The notes beneath the pieces were generated by a model. It was not told the origin of the DNA. It searched no databases and saw nothing but the letters and a program-made list of their open reading frames with translations. DNA of 64,000 bases from Chloroflexi bacterium CSP1-4 (GTDB taxonomy: Bacteria > Chloroflexota > Limnocylindria > Limnocylindrales > CSP1-4): assembly GCA_001443375.1 (NCBI GenBank), contig LDXM01000013.1, positions 1-64,000 of the forward strand, given 5' to 3'. Made by a program: the position numbers and the translations under genes. Numbering within the stretch: the stretch's first letter is position 1; the number at the start of each line of letters is the position of its first letter. Positions 18,181 to 58,453 of the stretch are shown one piece after another.

Positions 18181-18270
18181 TGCCCTCCCCGGCAACCGGG
18201 CTACCTCCGGCGGAACGGAGGCCCCTGGCTTTGCGTCCCCGCCTCGCGACGGGTTTGCCCTGGACGGTCT
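18181..18270 (-). promoter_or_regulatory. Class I cyclic-di-GMP riboswitch (GEMM-I)
   Basis: On the minus strand the conserved blocks appear in the right order and spacing: CCAGGGCAAACCC (18263-18251 region), the P2 stem CCCGTC-GCGA-GGCGGG with a GNRA tetraloop, GGGGACGCAAAGCC (18240-18227), the P3 stem CCTCCG...CGGAGG, then GGTAGCCCGGTTGCCG. These match the Vc2-type c-di-GMP-I aptamer closely. The 5' block has G at every candidate position of the discriminating residue 20, favouring c-di-GMP over cGAMP. A GGTGAAGTTCACC hairpin and a TAGAGT hexamer (18310-18305) lie upstream. The downstream genes are the two microproteins; the upstream operon makes and degrades c-di-GMP. Confidence 0.9.
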
Positions 18271-37723: not shown

Positions 37724-37754
37724 GGTGGTGCCTGTCCTTTCTCGCGAAGGCTCG

Positions 37755-37884
37755 AGCACGACCGCGGGACCGGCGACCGGACTTCCAGCGCCACCGACGT
37801 CACGTCGGGGGCTGGTCACCGTAGCGGGACTGTGCCGGATTCTCACCGGCTTCGCGGACCCCGCGGTCCTGATCTTTGGTTGTC
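37755..37884 (-). promoter_or_regulatory. Cobalamin (AdoCbl) riboswitch
   Basis: The minus strand shows the conserved core GAAGCCGGTGAGAATCCGGC (37854-37835), CAGTCCCGCTACGGTGA and the B12-box-like GCTGGAAGTCCGGTC further down. GACCGCGG at the 5' side and CCGCGGTC at the 3' side can close P1. A CTCGAGCC...CGAG hairpin and the btuF ribosome site follow, fitting B12-repressed translation of the importer. Confidence 0.88.
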
Positions 37885-52521: not shown

Positions 52522-54457
52522 GCTCCAGTGGCTCGATCTGGTCGGCCGGCGTGAAACCGAAGACCTGTCCGTAGAAGGAGAGCTCCGCCTCATACGAGCG
52601 GCGGATGTTCTCGGCCTTGCGGAAGCCGTGACCCTCCCCTTCGAAGGCGAGGTAGGCGTGGGGGATGCCCTTCGCCGTGAGGGCGGCCACGATCTGCTCG
52701 GCCTGGCTGGGCGGTACGACCTTGTCGTCGAGCCCCTGCAGGATGAGCATCGGGGCGGAGATGCGCTCCACGTGCAGGATGGGCGAGCGCTCCAGCCACA
52801 GGTCGCGGGTCTCCGGCCAGGGTCCCACGAGGCGCTCCGTGTAGCGCGATTCGAACTTGTGGGTCTCGAGGTCGAAGCCGGTCAGGTCGCCGATGCCGAA
52901 GTAGCTGACGCCCGCCGAGAATGCCTCCGGGCGGAAGGCGAGCGCGGCGAGGGTGGTGTAGCCACCGGCGCTCCCGCCCTGGACCGCGATGCGCGCGGGG
53001 TCCACCTCTCCAGTGTCGGACAGGAAGCGGGCGGCATCGATGCAGTCGTCCACGTCCACGACGCCCCACTGCCCCTCCAGTCGCGAGCGGTACGCGCGGC
53101 CGTAGCCGGTGCTGCCGCCGTAGTCCACGTCCACCACGCCGATGCCCCGGCTGGTGTAGAACTGGATCGCGCCGCGGAAACCGGCGCCGGTCGCCGAGGT
53201 GGGACCGCCGTGGCTCAGCACGCGCAGTGGCGGCCGCTCGCCCGCCGGCCCTTCGAAGGCCTCGTTGTGCGGCGCGTAGTACAGCGCGTGGGCGGTCAGC
53301 CCGCCCTCGGTGGGGAACTCGATGTGGCGCGGCATCGACAGCTCGGCGGCCGGGAAGGCGACACCCGAGGTCCGTCGGATCACGCTGAGCGCGCCGCTGC
53401 CGAGGTCGATCGCGGCGACGTGGGGAGGTTCTGCCGGCGACGAGCCCACCACGACCGCGGTCGAGCCGGCGACCACGACGTCCGGGATCTCCAGGTACGG
53501 GACCGGGATGGGGGTCGTGACGCCCCCCGGTGTGATCCTCCACAGGCGATCGATGCCGCCCGCCCGAGCGACGGCCACGATCGAGCCGTCGCCGGCGAAG
53601 CCGTACGTCGACATCCCGAAGACCCACTGGGGGCCCGCGAACTCGGCCTCCATGGGGGCGACGGCGGTGATCGAGCCGTCCCCTTCGAGCCGATAGAGGT
53701 TCCACCAGTCGCTGCGGTCCGAGACGAAGTGCAGGCTCCCGTCCGGCGACCAGGCCGGCTCGGCGATCGACTCGGAGCGGCCGCCGGCGATCGTCCGGGT
53801 CGGCCCAGGCAACCCGCGGGCGTCCAGCTCGGCGAGGCGCAGCTCGGAGCCGTCCCAGGGCATGTCGGGCAGCGACCAGGTCAGCCAGGCCAGCCGGCGC
53901 CCGTCCGGGCTCAGGCGGAGAGGGCCGTAGAAATCGTCGCCCGAGACCAGGACGACGGGCTCAGCGGGCGGGGACCCCTCGGTCCCGAGCGGGACGGTGA
54001 CGATCTCGTTGGCCGGCACGCCGCCGCCCCGGTGATCCTCGCGGACGCAGATGAGCCGCGAACGGCCGGCGTCGAGCGAGATGTCGGCGTAGCGCGTGGC
54101 GCCCTCGGGGGTGACGGGCTCCGCGCCCCCGCCGGGCAGGGTGCGGTGGAGGCGGCCGTCCCGAAAGTCGGAGTGGTAGACCGTGCCCTCGTGGATGGCC
54201 CAGGCGCCGCCGCCGTACTCGTGGACGCCGTCACGCACGTTGGCCTCGCGCGGCGTCAGCTCCTCGAACCCGCCGTCGGCGGTCGTCCGCACCACGACGC
54301 CACGGCCACCCTCCCCGGGTCGATCTTCCAGCCAGGCGATCGTCGAGCCGTCGAGCCGCGGCTCGCTGGCGAAGACGCGCTCGGCGAGGAGCGCATCGAC
54401 GGTGATCGAGGAGCGCCAGCTTCCGTACGGTGCGATCGTGCGCCCGGTCGCCGTCAC
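52505..54457 (-). CDS. S9 family prolyl oligopeptidase-like peptidase
   Basis: A 650-residue protein with an N-terminal beta-propeller (repeats such as [13 protein letters not shown] and [13 protein letters not shown]) and a C-terminal alpha/beta-hydrolase domain. The nucleophile motif is [10 protein letters not shown] (Ser), the acid lies in [10 protein letters not shown] and the His in [12 protein letters not shown]. This is the dipeptidyl/acylaminoacyl peptidase arrangement. No signal peptide is seen, so it is probably cytoplasmic. GTG 54457 overlaps the ahcY stop as GTGA. Confidence 0.92.
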
Positions 54458-55728
54458 GTCCCGCTCTGCCAGGAGCCGGCATAGCGCTTCTGCTCCTCGG
54501 TCATCTCGTCGAGGGTGATGCCAAGGGCCGCCAGCTTCAGGCGCGCCACCTCCCGGTCGATCGCCTCGGGCACGTCGTACACGCGGTCCTCCAGCTCGTC
54601 GTGGTGCGCGGCCACGTACTCGGCGCACAACGCCTGGTTGGCGAAGCTCATGTCCATGACCGCCGCCGGGTGGCCCTCCGCGGCGCCCAGGTTGACCAGG
54701 CGCCCCTCGGCCAGGAGGTGCAGCTTCTTCGGGCCCAGGTCGAACTCCAGGACGTTGTCGCGCACCTCGCGCACGTGGCCCTCGGCCAGCTGGCGTAGCG
54801 CGACGAGGTCCAGCTCGGCGTCGAAGTGGCCGCTGTTGGCCAGGATCGCGCCGTCGCGCATGGCCGTGAAGTGCTCGCGGCGGAAGACGTTGATGTTGCC
54901 CGTGGCGGTGATGAAGACCTCGCCCCACGGCGCGGCCTGGGCCGCGGTGAGCACCTCGTACCCGTCCATCAGCGCCTCGAGCGCCCGGACCGGATCCACC
55001 TCGACGACCGCGACGTGGCCGCCGAGGCCGCGGAAGCGCGCCGTGATGCCCTTGCCCACCCAGCCGTAGCCGGCCACGACGATGCGCCGCCCCGCGATGA
55101 GGATGTTCGTGGCGCGCAGGACCCCGTCGAGGGTGGACTGGCCGGTGCCGTAGCGGTTGTCGAAGAGGTGCTTGGTCTGGGCCTCGTTGACCGCGATGAC
55201 CGGGAAGCCGAGGGCGCCGTCGGCGGCCATGGCTCGCAGGCGGATGACGCCGGTGGTCGTCTCCTCCGTGCCCGCGAGGACCTCCGCCACCTGCGCCGGC
55301 CGCTCCTGGTGGAGCAGCGAGACGAGGTCGCAGCCATCGTCCATGGTCAGCAGCGGGTGCGTGTCGGCGACCGCGCCGAGATGCGCGTAGTACGTGTCGC
55401 GATCCTCGCCGTGACGGGCGAAGACGCCGATGCCGTACTCGGCCACGAGGGCGGCCGCCACGTCGTCCTTGGTGGAGAGCGGGTTCGAGGCGGCCAGCAC
55501 GACCTCGGCGCCGCCGGCGCGCAGGGTACGCATGAGGTTGGCCGTCTCGGTCGTGACATGCAGGCAGGCCCCGATGCGCAGCCCGGCCAGCGGCCGCTCA
55601 CGCCCGAAGCGTTCGCCGATCAGGCGCAGGACGGGCATCTCCCGCTCCGCCCACTCGATGCGCCGCCGTCCCTCGGCGGCAAGGCCGAGGTCGCTGACGT
55701 CGTGAGCGGGCAGCGCGGTCGCGGACAC
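54454..55728 (-). CDS. ahcY: Adenosylhomocysteinase
   Basis: AhcY splits S-adenosylhomocysteine into adenosine and homocysteine with bound NAD. The 424-residue sequence has [40 protein letters not shown], the NAD fold [20 protein letters not shown] and [10 protein letters not shown]. It lacks the 40-residue insert found in some bacterial forms. The genes that follow and precede it on the strand suggest a methyl-cycle cluster with metK and apt. Confidence 0.94.
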
Positions 55729-55731
55729 GGG

Positions 55732-56604
55732 TCAGGACTCCTTGCGGGACACGAAGAGGCGCCGGAGGGGCGCCACGATGCTATCCCAGCCGGAGGAGCG
55801 GCGGTTGGCGAGGCGCTCTTCGAAGCGGACGTGCTCGCGGTACCCGAGGGCCGCGTAGGCCGCCAGCGCCGCCGGGTTGTCGGAGCGGACGTTGAGCACG
55901 ACCTGGTCGCAGGTGCGCAGCAGCTCCTGCGTGACGGCGCTCGTGGTCAGCTTCGCCAGGCCTCGGTTGCGGTGGTCCTGGCGGGTCATCACGTTGCCCA
56001 CGACCCCCAACCGCGCCTCCTCGCTGATGACGTGGGTCCCGGCGGCGGCGACCAGCCGACCGCCCACGCGGATCCCGTAGTAGACCCCCTGCGCGACCGC
56101 CTCGGCGGGCAGCCAGGAGGTGAAGCCGAGGTTGTAGAGGCGGTTGAGATCCCCGATCTCGGAGGGCAGCAGGCGCGCCGTGGCCCCCGGAGCGGGCCGG
56201 AACGAAGACCGATCCACCCACATGCGCACCATCGGCGGCCCCGGGGCGACCCGGTAGATCCTCTCGACCGCGGCGAGGTGGGCGGGCAGCCCCGCGACGT
56301 AGGCGGCCCGCGGCCGGATGACGTCGTGCAGGACGGCCGCCACCCCGTCGGGGTCGCCCATCAGGAACAGCGGCTGCGGCGCGAAGCCGACGTACTCGAG
56401 GGCCACGGCGAGGAGCCGGTCGCCGTCGAAGGCGGCGCCCCAGCGCGTGCGCGCGAACTCGCGCGCGTCGAGGTCGCAGATGGCGTAGGCGGCGTAGAGG
56501 CGATCGCGCTCGAGGAAGGCACGCAGGAGGACGCGATCGGTCGTCGTGCGCGTCTCGAGCTGGCCCTCGACGCGCTCGCCGGCCCGGCTGGCGGCCGTGG
56601 CCAT
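55732..56604 (-). CDS. GNAT family N-acetyltransferase
   Basis: A 290-residue protein whose C-terminal half (about 135-275) is a GNAT domain: RLGVVGNVMTRQDHRNRGLA carries the acetyl-CoA-binding (Q/R)xxGx(G/A)-like loop, followed by VVLNVRSDNPAALAAYAALG, the classic strand-helix. The N-terminal half (YAAYAICDLDAREFARTRWG) may be a second degenerate GNAT unit. The substrate is unknown. It starts as the MtnA-like gene ends (1-nt overlap). Confidence 0.82.
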   Translation of the reverse strand: MATAASRAGERVEGQLETRTTTDRVLLRAFLERDRLYAAYAICDLDAREFARTRWGAAFDGDRLLAVALEYVGFAPQPLFLMGDPDGVAAVLHDVIRPRAAYVAGLPAHLAAVERIYRVAPGPPMVRMWVDRSSFRPAPGATARLLPSEIGDLNRLYNLGFTSWLPAEAVAQGVYYGIRVGGRLVAAAGTHVISEEARLGVVGNVMTRQDHRNRGLAKLTTSAVTQELLRTCDQVVLNVRSDNPAALAAYAALGYREHVRFEERLANRRSSGWDSIVAPLRRLFVSRKES

Positions 56605-57911
56605 CAGCCGAACCGAACCGCGACCGGTTCAGGGAAGGGCGGCTGCACGATCCCCCCATCGGTGACGTAGGACGTGACCAGGTCCACGGGCGTGATGTCG
56701 ACGAGCGGCACGAGCGCCTCGGTCTCGGGCGGGGGCGAGGGCTCGCCGGCCACGGCCAACAGCTCCGAGGCGGGGCGGAAGGCGATGATCAGCGCGGCGC
56801 CGTCCGCAACCGTGGGATCCACCGCGGCCAGCGGGGCGCAGACGTGGAAGGGCACGCCGTGGCGCGCGGCGAGGACGGCCAGCGGGTACGTCCCGGCGGC
56901 GTTGGCCAGGTCACCGTTCGCCGCGATCCGCTCCGCACCCACGAGCACGACGTCCACCGAGCGCTCGCGCAGCAGCCAGCCCACGGCGCCATCCGCCACG
57001 ACGGTGCAGGGGATGTCCGACATGCGCAGCTCGGGGGCGGCGAGACGGGCGCCGGACCGACCCGGCCGCGTCTCGAGCACCCAGACGTGGACGGCTCGAC
57101 CGCCGGCCGCGATCGCCCCGATGACGCCCATCGCCGTGCCCACCATGCCCGCCGAGAGCGGCCCGGTCTCGTCGATGGTCACGATCTCCAGCGGCCGTCC
57201 GTCCGGCTGCGCCAGGAGCGCAGCGCCCTCGCGCCCGATGCGCCCGTGGCCGAGGGTCGCCTCCATGGCGATGGCGTCCGCCTCGGCGCGGATGGCGGTC
57301 GCGATCGCCCCGCCCTCGGCCAGCTCACCCACCGCGTGCCAGGCTTCGACGCACCGATCCACCGCCCGTGCGATGGCCGCCACGTCCGGGCGCGCGTTGC
57401 GCAGCGCGTTCCCGGTGCCGCGCAGCGTGGCGTTGCGCACGAACGGCTTGGAGGCCACGTTCCGTTCCGCCGCAAGAGCCAGGGCGTAGGCGGCGAGCTG
57501 CCCCAGCAGGGGGGCGCCACGGGCGGCGAGGTCGCGCATCGCCGCGGCGACCTCGGCGCCGGTGCGGCACTCGATCGTGACGGCCTGGGCCGGGAGGCGG
57601 CGCTGGTCGAGGACGTGGATCACGCCATCGCCCAGCCGGTACGGGCTCCGAAAGCCGACGACCCCTCCAGCGAACGCGCCGGCCAGGCGATCGGCGGTGC
57701 CGGCCGGGTCCATCCCCAGGCCGAGCAGCTCTCCGGCGGCGGCGGTCGTGCCGCGACGCACCGCGGAGGCGGCGCCGACGACGGTGGCGGCCGTCTGGAT
57801 GGCCTCACGCGAGAAGGCGCGGAAGAAGCCGCGCCGTCCGAGATCCGCCCCCTCGGCGGCCGACGAGGGGGTCTCGGGGCCCTCGTTCGGTCGGTCCGTC
57901 CCGCCCGTCAC
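56604..57911 (-). CDS. MtnA/eIF2B-like protein with both catalytic residues replaced
   Basis: A 435-residue protein whose last 320 residues follow the methylthioribose-1-phosphate isomerase fold: LAARGAPLLGQLAAYALAL, VLETRPGRSGARL and ERIAANGDLANAAGTYPLAV. In active MtnA a Cys sits in the THCNAG-type motif and an Asp in VGxDRxAANGD. Here they read TIDETG (Asp247) and VGAERIAANGD (Glu327), so isomerase activity is doubtful. The N-terminus has LGRRGFFRAFSREAIQTAAT, a twin-arginine-like segment not found in MtnA. It lies 20 nt after apt. It may bind a nucleotide or sugar phosphate in adenine salvage, or have a new role. Confidence 0.72.
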   Translation of the reverse strand: MTGGTDRPNEGPETPSSAAEGADLGRRGFFRAFSREAIQTAATVVGAASAVRRGTTAAAGELLGLGMDPAGTADRLAGAFAGGVVGFRSPYRLGDGVIHVLDQRRLPAQAVTIECRTGAEVAAAMRDLAARGAPLLGQLAAYALALAAERNVASKPFVRNATLRGTGNALRNARPDVAAIARAVDRCVEAWHAVGELAEGGAIATAIRAEADAIAMEATLGHGRIGREGAALLAQPDGRPLEIVTIDETGPLSAGMVGTAMGVIGAIAAGGRAVHVWVLETRPGRSGARLAAPELRMSDIPCTVVADGAVGWLLRERSVDVVLVGAERIAANGDLANAAGTYPLAVLAARHGVPFHVCAPLAAVDPTVADGAALIIAFRPASELLAVAGEPSPPPETEALVPLVDITPVDLVTSYVTDGGIVQPPFPEPVAVRFG

Positions 57912-57931: not shown

Positions 57932-58453
57932 TCAGTACTGGATGACGCTGTGGATTTCGTGCCCGCGCAGCTTGTCGCGGCCCTTGAGGAAGAGCAGCTC
58001 CACGAGGAAGGCCAGCCCGACCACGTCGCCCCCCAGGCGGCGCACCAGCTCGATCGTGCCGTTGACCGTGCCGCCGGTGGCCAGCAGGTCATCCACGATG
58101 AGCACCTTCTGGCCCGACACGATGGCGTCCTTATGGACCTCGAGCGTGTTCGTGCCGTACTCCAGGGCGTACTCCACGCTGACCGTCTCGGCGGGCAACT
58201 TGCCCAGCTTGCGCACGGGCACGAAGCCGGCCTTGAGCTGGTAGGCCATCGGCGCGCTGAAGATGAAGCCGCGCGACTCCATGCCCACCACGATGTCCAC
58301 CGTGCGGTCCCGGTACGGCGCCGTCAGCAGATCGATCGACTCGCGGTATGCCGCCGGGTCCTTGAGCATCGTCGTGATGTCGTAGAACAGGATGCCCGGC
58401 TTGGGGAAGTCGGGGACCTCGCGGATCCGGGCGCGGAGGTCTTCGGCGGACAC
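57932..58453 (-). CDS. apt: Adenine phosphoribosyltransferase
   Basis: Apt makes AMP from adenine and PRPP. The 173-residue protein has [16 protein letters not shown], the GMESRGFIF hood motif and the PRPP loop [16 protein letters not shown] 58453 has GAGGAG upstream, and TAGACT lies at 58506-58501, giving a leader of about 40 nt. It heads the unit apt, mtnA-like, GNAT, ahcY and peptidase, and would recycle adenine released by SAM-dependent reactions. Confidence 0.94.

Follow-up and report, generated by a model that had tools for sequence, protein, structure and literature searches.

An apt-ahcY locus with an altered MtnA-like gene

The window analysed here is a stretch of 64,000 nucleotides from Chloroflexi bacterium CSP1-4 (contig LDXM01000013.1, positions 1 to 64,000). 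Four genes follow one another on its minus strand, namely apt, a gene for an MtnA-like protein, a gene for a GNAT-family acetyltransferase and ahcY, and from their strand and spacing we infer that they form an operon. An earlier note on this DNA had placed the MtnA-like gene between apt and ahcY-linked genes and assigned it to adenine/methyl salvage. The position was confirmed, with one GNAT gene separating the gene from ahcY, and membership in an adenine/SAM-cycle locus is supported by apt upstream and ahcY past the GNAT gene. Beyond ahcY lie a prolyl-oligopeptidase-like gene and metK, and before apt there are coxG/xdhC/coxLSM genes. The window also encodes a c-di-GMP-I-GGC riboswitch (18187-18268, minus strand, 66.8 bits) and an AdoCbl riboswitch (37726-37881, minus strand, 64.2 bits). 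The features of the locus are as follows.

57932..58453, minus: apt, adenine phosphoribosyltransferase (TIGR01090, 228.8 bits against a cut-off of 185.85), 20 bases upstream of the MtnA-like gene
56604..57911, minus: extended MtnA-like protein, predicted pseudoenzyme (form X), 435 aa, GTG start, TGA stop
57708..57848, minus: conserved N-terminal segment, residues 22-68 (ADLGRRGFFRAFSREAIQTAATVVGAASAVRRGTTAAAGELLGLGMD; model A1, E=8.4e-21)
56628..57629, minus: MtnA/eIF2B-like domain, residues 95-428 (PF01008, 2.2e-51; 1t9k, 1.1e-53)
57171..57173, minus: Asp247 (GAC) in place of the catalytic Cys, aligned with Cys156 of 1t9k
56931..56933, minus: Glu327 (GAG) in place of the catalytic Asp, aligned with Asp236 of 1t9k
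56898..56900, minus: Ala338 in place of the Lys of the ANK motif, by alignment
55732..56604, minus: GNAT-family acetyltransferase, its ATG overlapping the TGA of the MtnA-like gene by one base (TGATG)
54454..55728, minus: ahcY, adenosylhomocysteinase (TIGR00936, 598.7 bits)

The window protein matches the Pfam family IF-2B (PF01008) over residues 131-424 with 175.2 bits against a cut-off of 22.4, and was the sole PF01008 protein found in its genome (2.6 Mb, 92% complete). Its best solved relative is MtnA of T. maritima (1t9k), aligned over residues 98-430. The protein falls below the cut-off of the NCBIfam equivalog TIGR00512 (263.4 bits, cut-off 279) and above that of the broader subfamily model NF004326 (PRK05720; 274.3 bits, cut-off 271), and because the latter is passed, automatic annotation names a protein that we predict to be catalytically dead S-methyl-5-thioribose-1-phosphate isomerase. 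It scores far below the cut-off of the R15P isomerase model TIGR00511 (93.7 bits against 314.1; the catalytic Cys is absent) and below those of the eIF2B/aIF2B-type models NF006210 (48.7 against 339) and NF004994 (43 against 249).

That the protein combines an MtnA fold with changes at both catalytic positions, as claimed in the earlier note, was confirmed by the PF01008 match, the alignment to 1t9k and the location of the codons, with Asp247 at the Cys position and Glu327 at the Asp position. In addition, the His preceding the catalytic Cys is replaced by Ile246, the Gln of YLQGARL by Ser286 and the Lys by Ala338, this Gln and Lys being fixed in the intact forms E and S described below. In R15P isomerase of the same superfamily, the substitutions C135S and D204N each abolish the reaction, according to excerpts of PMC5789824. 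With Cys, Asp, His, Gln and Lys all replaced, the proposal of a non-isomerase is supported: the protein is very probably no MTR-1-P isomerase, and our confidence that isomerase activity has been lost is high. Ligand binding, which had been proposed together with a regulatory role, is unsupported if understood as a retained sugar-phosphate pocket, as the phosphate- and sugar-contacting residues vary freely across form X.

Distribution of the forms and changes at the active site

Family f1, to which the window genome belongs and which by its inferred taxonomy is probably Limnocylindria CSP1-4, yielded PF01008 proteins in 84 of 107 genomes. We distinguished three forms. Form E (32 full copies) combines the N-terminal extension with an intact site, recognised by THCNTGPLAC, Gln, GADR and NK; form X (46 full copies, window included) has the extension but a replaced Cys; and form S (21 copies) is the ordinary short MtnA lacking the extension. 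Among 87 loci of the extended gene, apt adjoins in 78 and GNAT in 77. Seven misses for apt and seven for GNAT are contig ends; the others are additional X copies situated elsewhere (L045, L085) and a piece of an S gene (L121). Judged by these neighbourhoods, E and X occupy one and the same locus.

Both displaced copies have surroundings of their own. L085 (7692-9275, minus strand) is a second X copy in a g2 genome, 67% identical to the X proteins of genus g19. Its frame is open, and genes for a Fic protein and for a phage-type integrase lie nearby, whereas apt and GNAT do not; it probably arrived by horizontal transfer, or else reflects a binning error. L045 (4826-6958, minus strand) is a hyper-diverged third extended copy in genome G036, in sugar-transport-like surroundings with DUF2961 proteins, an ABC permease and a LacI regulator.

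The genome-reduced sister family f2 fits Limnocylindraceae, class Limnocylindria, as described in a section of PMC13212565. None of its 19 genomes (0.8-1.2 Mb) matched the window protein in a direct search, whereas the model of the N-terminal segment finds the gene, of about 1.3 kb, in 17 of the 19, with apt adjoining in five of five loci looked at. The encoded protein is a strongly diverged MtnA-like protein that gives 9.9 bits or no match to Pfam IF-2B, and matches a model of the f1 proteins at 1e-19 to 1e-32 in 17 of 17 cases. In genus g3, 20 of 21 genomes gave no match, and apt runs directly into GNAT in seven of seven looked at; the gene is therefore dispensable there. The sole g3 genome with a match (G086) has two apt-GNAT loci, L204 and L112, of which just one contains the MtnA-like gene; this MAG may therefore be mixed. 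Among class relatives of families f3 and f4, three loci (G056, G057, G059) show apt-GNAT-ahcY without the MtnA-like gene, and G058 (f3) and G060 (f5) have other sequence in between. The simplest reading of this pattern would be an insertion in the common ancestor of f1 and f2 and a deletion in g3.

Every E copy (32) and every S copy (21) encodes the Cys by TGC. At this position 45 of the 46 X copies have a Gly codon, and the window alone has GAC; from these counts the Asp of the window was probably reached by way of Gly, as a second step. The residues that the X copies show in place of the catalytic Asp, or retain there, are Glu (24), Asp (20), Leu (1) and Ala (1). A sequencing error, which the earlier note had considered, is very unlikely because not one of the 46 full-length X copies, which come from many genomes and include that of the window, has the Cys. 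More widely, R50, A52, G56, R90, T92, A93, N95, T154, H155, C156, N157, Q195, D236, R237, N246, K247, E286, R288, E292 and some others (T. maritima numbering) are fixed in E and S and free in X. By alignment, these columns, fixed in E and ordinary MtnA yet free in X, are the active site and its surroundings.

The losses were counted on an 83-row tree that had S and T. maritima as its root and from whose alignment the catalytic columns had been removed; L045, L085 and L112, being strongly diverged or misplaced, were omitted from it, as were 14 of the 21 S rows and partial copies. Parsimony on this tree gives seven state changes, the exact position of the long rows being unsure. A phylogeny had been proposed as a check on whether the altered protein forms a clade; it is indeed a widespread form, but not a single clade, as holding the 43 X rows together lowers the log-likelihood by 197 and is rejected by the AU test (p-AU 1.3e-53). 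The clearest sign of repeated loss are E/X contrasts between close sisters inside genera g5, g13 and g19. These comparisons suggest that the catalytic Cys was lost about seven separate times at one orthologous locus. A count of two state changes on a midpoint-rooted tree was superseded because that tree contained the catalytic columns and the long rows.

The N-terminal segment

The conserved segment includes RRGFFR at residues 26-31 of the window protein. RRxFFR is invariant in the 26 aligned rows of model A1, and the whole block (RRxFFR, then A, GAA and L) is conserved equally in X and E. Alanine is abundant in the segment, most rows place an acidic residue behind RRxFFR, and a helical conformation is likely. 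An AlphaFold2 model of the window protein, computed from an alignment of two rows only (window protein and L002), is poor (mean pLDDT 50.1, pTM 0.50); residues 35-52 and 56-63 come out helical in it. When 11 genomes were searched with model A1, strong scores occurred in extended proteins only, the window segment being the only strong match in its own genome. Across 400 genomes of the phylum there were 34 with a match; 32 of these belong to f1 or f2, and in the other two the match is borderline (E 7.5e-4 and 9.5e-4). An RRxFLR version of the segment was further seen in front of a split-barrel protein at L223 (3291-4031, minus strand) and L222 (3605-4681, plus strand), that is, with a PNPOx-like domain in genomes G030 and G024 (PNPOx_N / PPOX class scan of L223, G030). 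Since the same segment precedes a PNPOx-like domain, it is a reusable, combinable module in this lineage.

The earlier note had described the segment as twin-arginine-like. The RRGFFR motif is present, but its role as an export signal is doubtful, and we regard a Tat-exported or membrane-held protein as unlikely. Such a reading would draw on the roughly 16 uncharged residues that follow RRxFFR in most copies, an AxA triplet that 30 of the 31 E copies and 39 of the 45 X copies possess, the TatC encoded in the window genome and the occurrence of the segment on two PNPOx-like proteins of related genomes. However, the Pfam model TAT_signal finds seven places in the window genome at E<=0.1 and none at the MtnA-like gene, the Tat models of Pfam and NCBIfam gave no match to the 48-aa segments, and an acidic residue usually stands between RR and the uncharged run, which is followed by charge in the sister family. 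Moreover, the intact E orthologues carry the same segment although their substrate is a cytosolic sugar phosphate, and an export signal makes little sense on an isomerase of this cytosolic type.

In outline the extension resembles an encapsulation peptide. Genes for bacterial microcompartment (BMC) shell proteins were found in two of eight genomes searched, both of genus g19, and not in the window genome; compartment targeting is therefore no general explanation. In these two g19 genomes the shell genes share a contig with a purine nucleoside phosphorylase-type match (G018:C125, G080:C41).

Salvage context, selection and possible function

The genomes with E and with X differ in their methionine-salvage genes. 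Of 47 X genomes, 20 also have an ordinary MtnA (form S), whereas none of 35 E genomes does (Fisher 2e-6, with the reservation that genera are non-independent and that S was found in five X-bearing genera). MtnP (MTA phosphorylase) was scored as present if the TIGR01694 match exceeded 100 bits, matches of about 98 bits or less being assigned to other nucleoside phosphorylases. On this basis 33 of 35 E genomes have it (completeness of the two without it: 54% and 65%), as do ten of 20 X genomes with S and six of 27 without S. Within genus g19, both E genomes and none of the four X genomes have MtnP, and in G015 and G077 it lies directly downstream of the E gene. No MTA phosphorylase was found in the window genome (G000), where TIGR01694 scores no higher than 61 bits (cut-off 274.85), at a purine nucleoside phosphorylase-like ORF. 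A phylogenetically corrected association between activity and MtnP agrees in direction but is underpowered, with four supported pairs (1.1 in the same direction, 0.1 in the other). MtnP is also present in four X genomes of reasonable completeness that lack S (G017, G108, G127, G128), which we read as partial salvage and not as proof of isomerase activity.

No stop was found inside any PF01008 match row in the 84 f1 genomes. The 121 listed within-genus X pairs all have dN/dS below 1 with a median of 0.39, compared with 0.31 for 74 E pairs, and close X pairs lie mostly at 0.09-0.39 (g2, g7 and g23 0.09-0.25; g19 0.32-0.35). Measured against GNAT, X evolves somewhat faster than E, with median dN ratios of 1.17 and 0.94. 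Nei-Gojobori counts saturate at high GC, and the GNAT comparators are stop-to-stop frames, which makes some GNAT values above 1 artefactual; our reading is therefore restricted to the order of the values and to close pairs. By these measures X is an open frame under purifying selection. Residues R88, R92, Q138, A183, E210, E217 and G255 (window numbering) are common to E and X and mostly not shared with S, and are candidates for residues tied to a putative second function.

We consider it likely that the gene encodes an MtnA-derived pseudoenzyme with an older, second, non-catalytic function, whose active site was lost repeatedly, and we are slightly more confident that X has been retained by selection for a non-catalytic role. 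Points that weigh against this reading are the lack of the gene in most of genus g3, the MtnP of six X genomes without an ordinary MtnA, the low power of the corrected association and the somewhat faster evolution of X relative to GNAT. Sequence comparison shows that in members of this bacterial order the interval from apt to GNAT holds an MtnA with a helical-looking N-terminal segment, which in many of them was, as form E, an ordinary MTR-1-P isomerase. It further shows several independent losses of the Cys and the substrate-contacting residues, giving form X; in the window genome this loss goes together with the absence of MtnP and of any other MtnA. The explanation that we propose is that E would already have had a second function, residing in the N-terminal segment and the fold, and that the catalytic site would have been free to decay where MTA salvage was dropped or moved to a separate ordinary MtnA. 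The second function would then keep the protein after catalysis has decayed. It may consist in docking to, or regulation of, Apt, GNAT or AhcY, with the RRxFFR segment as contact and the dimeric MtnA fold as scaffold; this is a guess, and our prediction that the partner of X is encoded in the same operon is a tentative one that we would sooner expect to fail than to hold.

The gene might instead be a functionless relic in slow decay, its reaction lost when MTA salvage was dropped and its deletion pending. The deletion in genus g3, the extreme divergence of copies from g17, g27 and the sister family and the faster change of X relative to GNAT are in line with this view. Against it speak the open frames throughout, the dN/dS ratios below 1, several of them at 0.09-0.25, the retention of the gene in nearly all of the small f2 genomes, an N-terminal block kept as in E and the g19-type X copy in a g2 genome, which has stayed open although it was moved away from apt and GNAT; we therefore regard a relic as unlikely. 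Convergence on Gly at the Cys position and the recurrent G(S/N)TGAL motifs could also point to a new enzyme, in which a glycine-rich loop, GSTGALSG, would replace HCNTGPLAC to catalyse another reaction in the former pocket, the more so as the fold, GARL, the D/E-R-I-A-A-N-G region and D216 (T. maritima numbering) are retained. But pocket residues (RGAP, R90, Q195, K247) vary between X groups, so that no common substrate is suggested, and Gly is one base step away from Cys (TGC to GGC), a step favoured by GC in a genome of 72% GC. A new enzyme seems to us quite improbable. The least probable reading, to which we give hardly any credence, is that the fold still isomerises MTR-1-P without the canonical Cys and Asp. 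The protein does pass the PRK05720 cut-off, and the four genomes named above combine MtnP and X without an ordinary MtnA; on the other side, the Cys, Asp, Lys and Gln have disappeared, often the Arg as well, an ordinary MtnA is found alongside X only, and the window genome has no MtnP.

If the MtnA-derived pseudoenzyme is real, E and X orthologues in one genus and the same operon would constitute a replicated natural experiment on the passage from enzyme to pseudoenzyme, in which losses of the partner pathway could be dated against each other. Metabolic models that follow the annotation would wrongly credit common soil, sediment and freshwater bacteria with MTA salvage. Within the open-licence literature we found no paper on MtnA pseudoenzymes or on methionine salvage in Limnocylindrales; PMC6302742 discusses promiscuity of MtnA and not dead forms.

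Among known proteins, MtnA itself (PF01008, TIGR00512) shares the same domain over its whole length with the window protein, including RGAP-G, GARL, ERIAANGD and the C-terminal PxxDxTP. The window protein differs by the replacement of the catalytic Cys and Asp and the substrate-contacting His, Gln and Lys, by its N-terminal extension and by its apt-GNAT-ahcY locus. The E orthologues (e.g. L052, L057, L062) share this locus and the N-terminal segment, and differ by a complete active site and by MtnP in the genome. R15P isomerase (TIGR00511) belongs to the same superfamily and has the same catalytic pair in its active members, with the window protein far below its cut-off. A likeness in kind is offered by eIF2B alpha, a eukaryotic regulatory relative and former sugar-phosphate isomerase turned non-enzymatic. 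Its catalytic Cys is Ala in human or Gly in S. pombe (excerpts of PMC5789824), and it retains the sugar/5-phosphate site and senses sugar phosphates (excerpts of PMC8187479), whereas X has no common pocket and lies on the MtnA branch, not the eIF2B branch. Whether an apt-linked isomerase with a second function shed catalysis about seven times, with that function surviving extreme genome reduction in the sister family, as in a bacterial counterpart of eIF2B, seems to us evenly balanced; the parallel is one of kind and not of descent.
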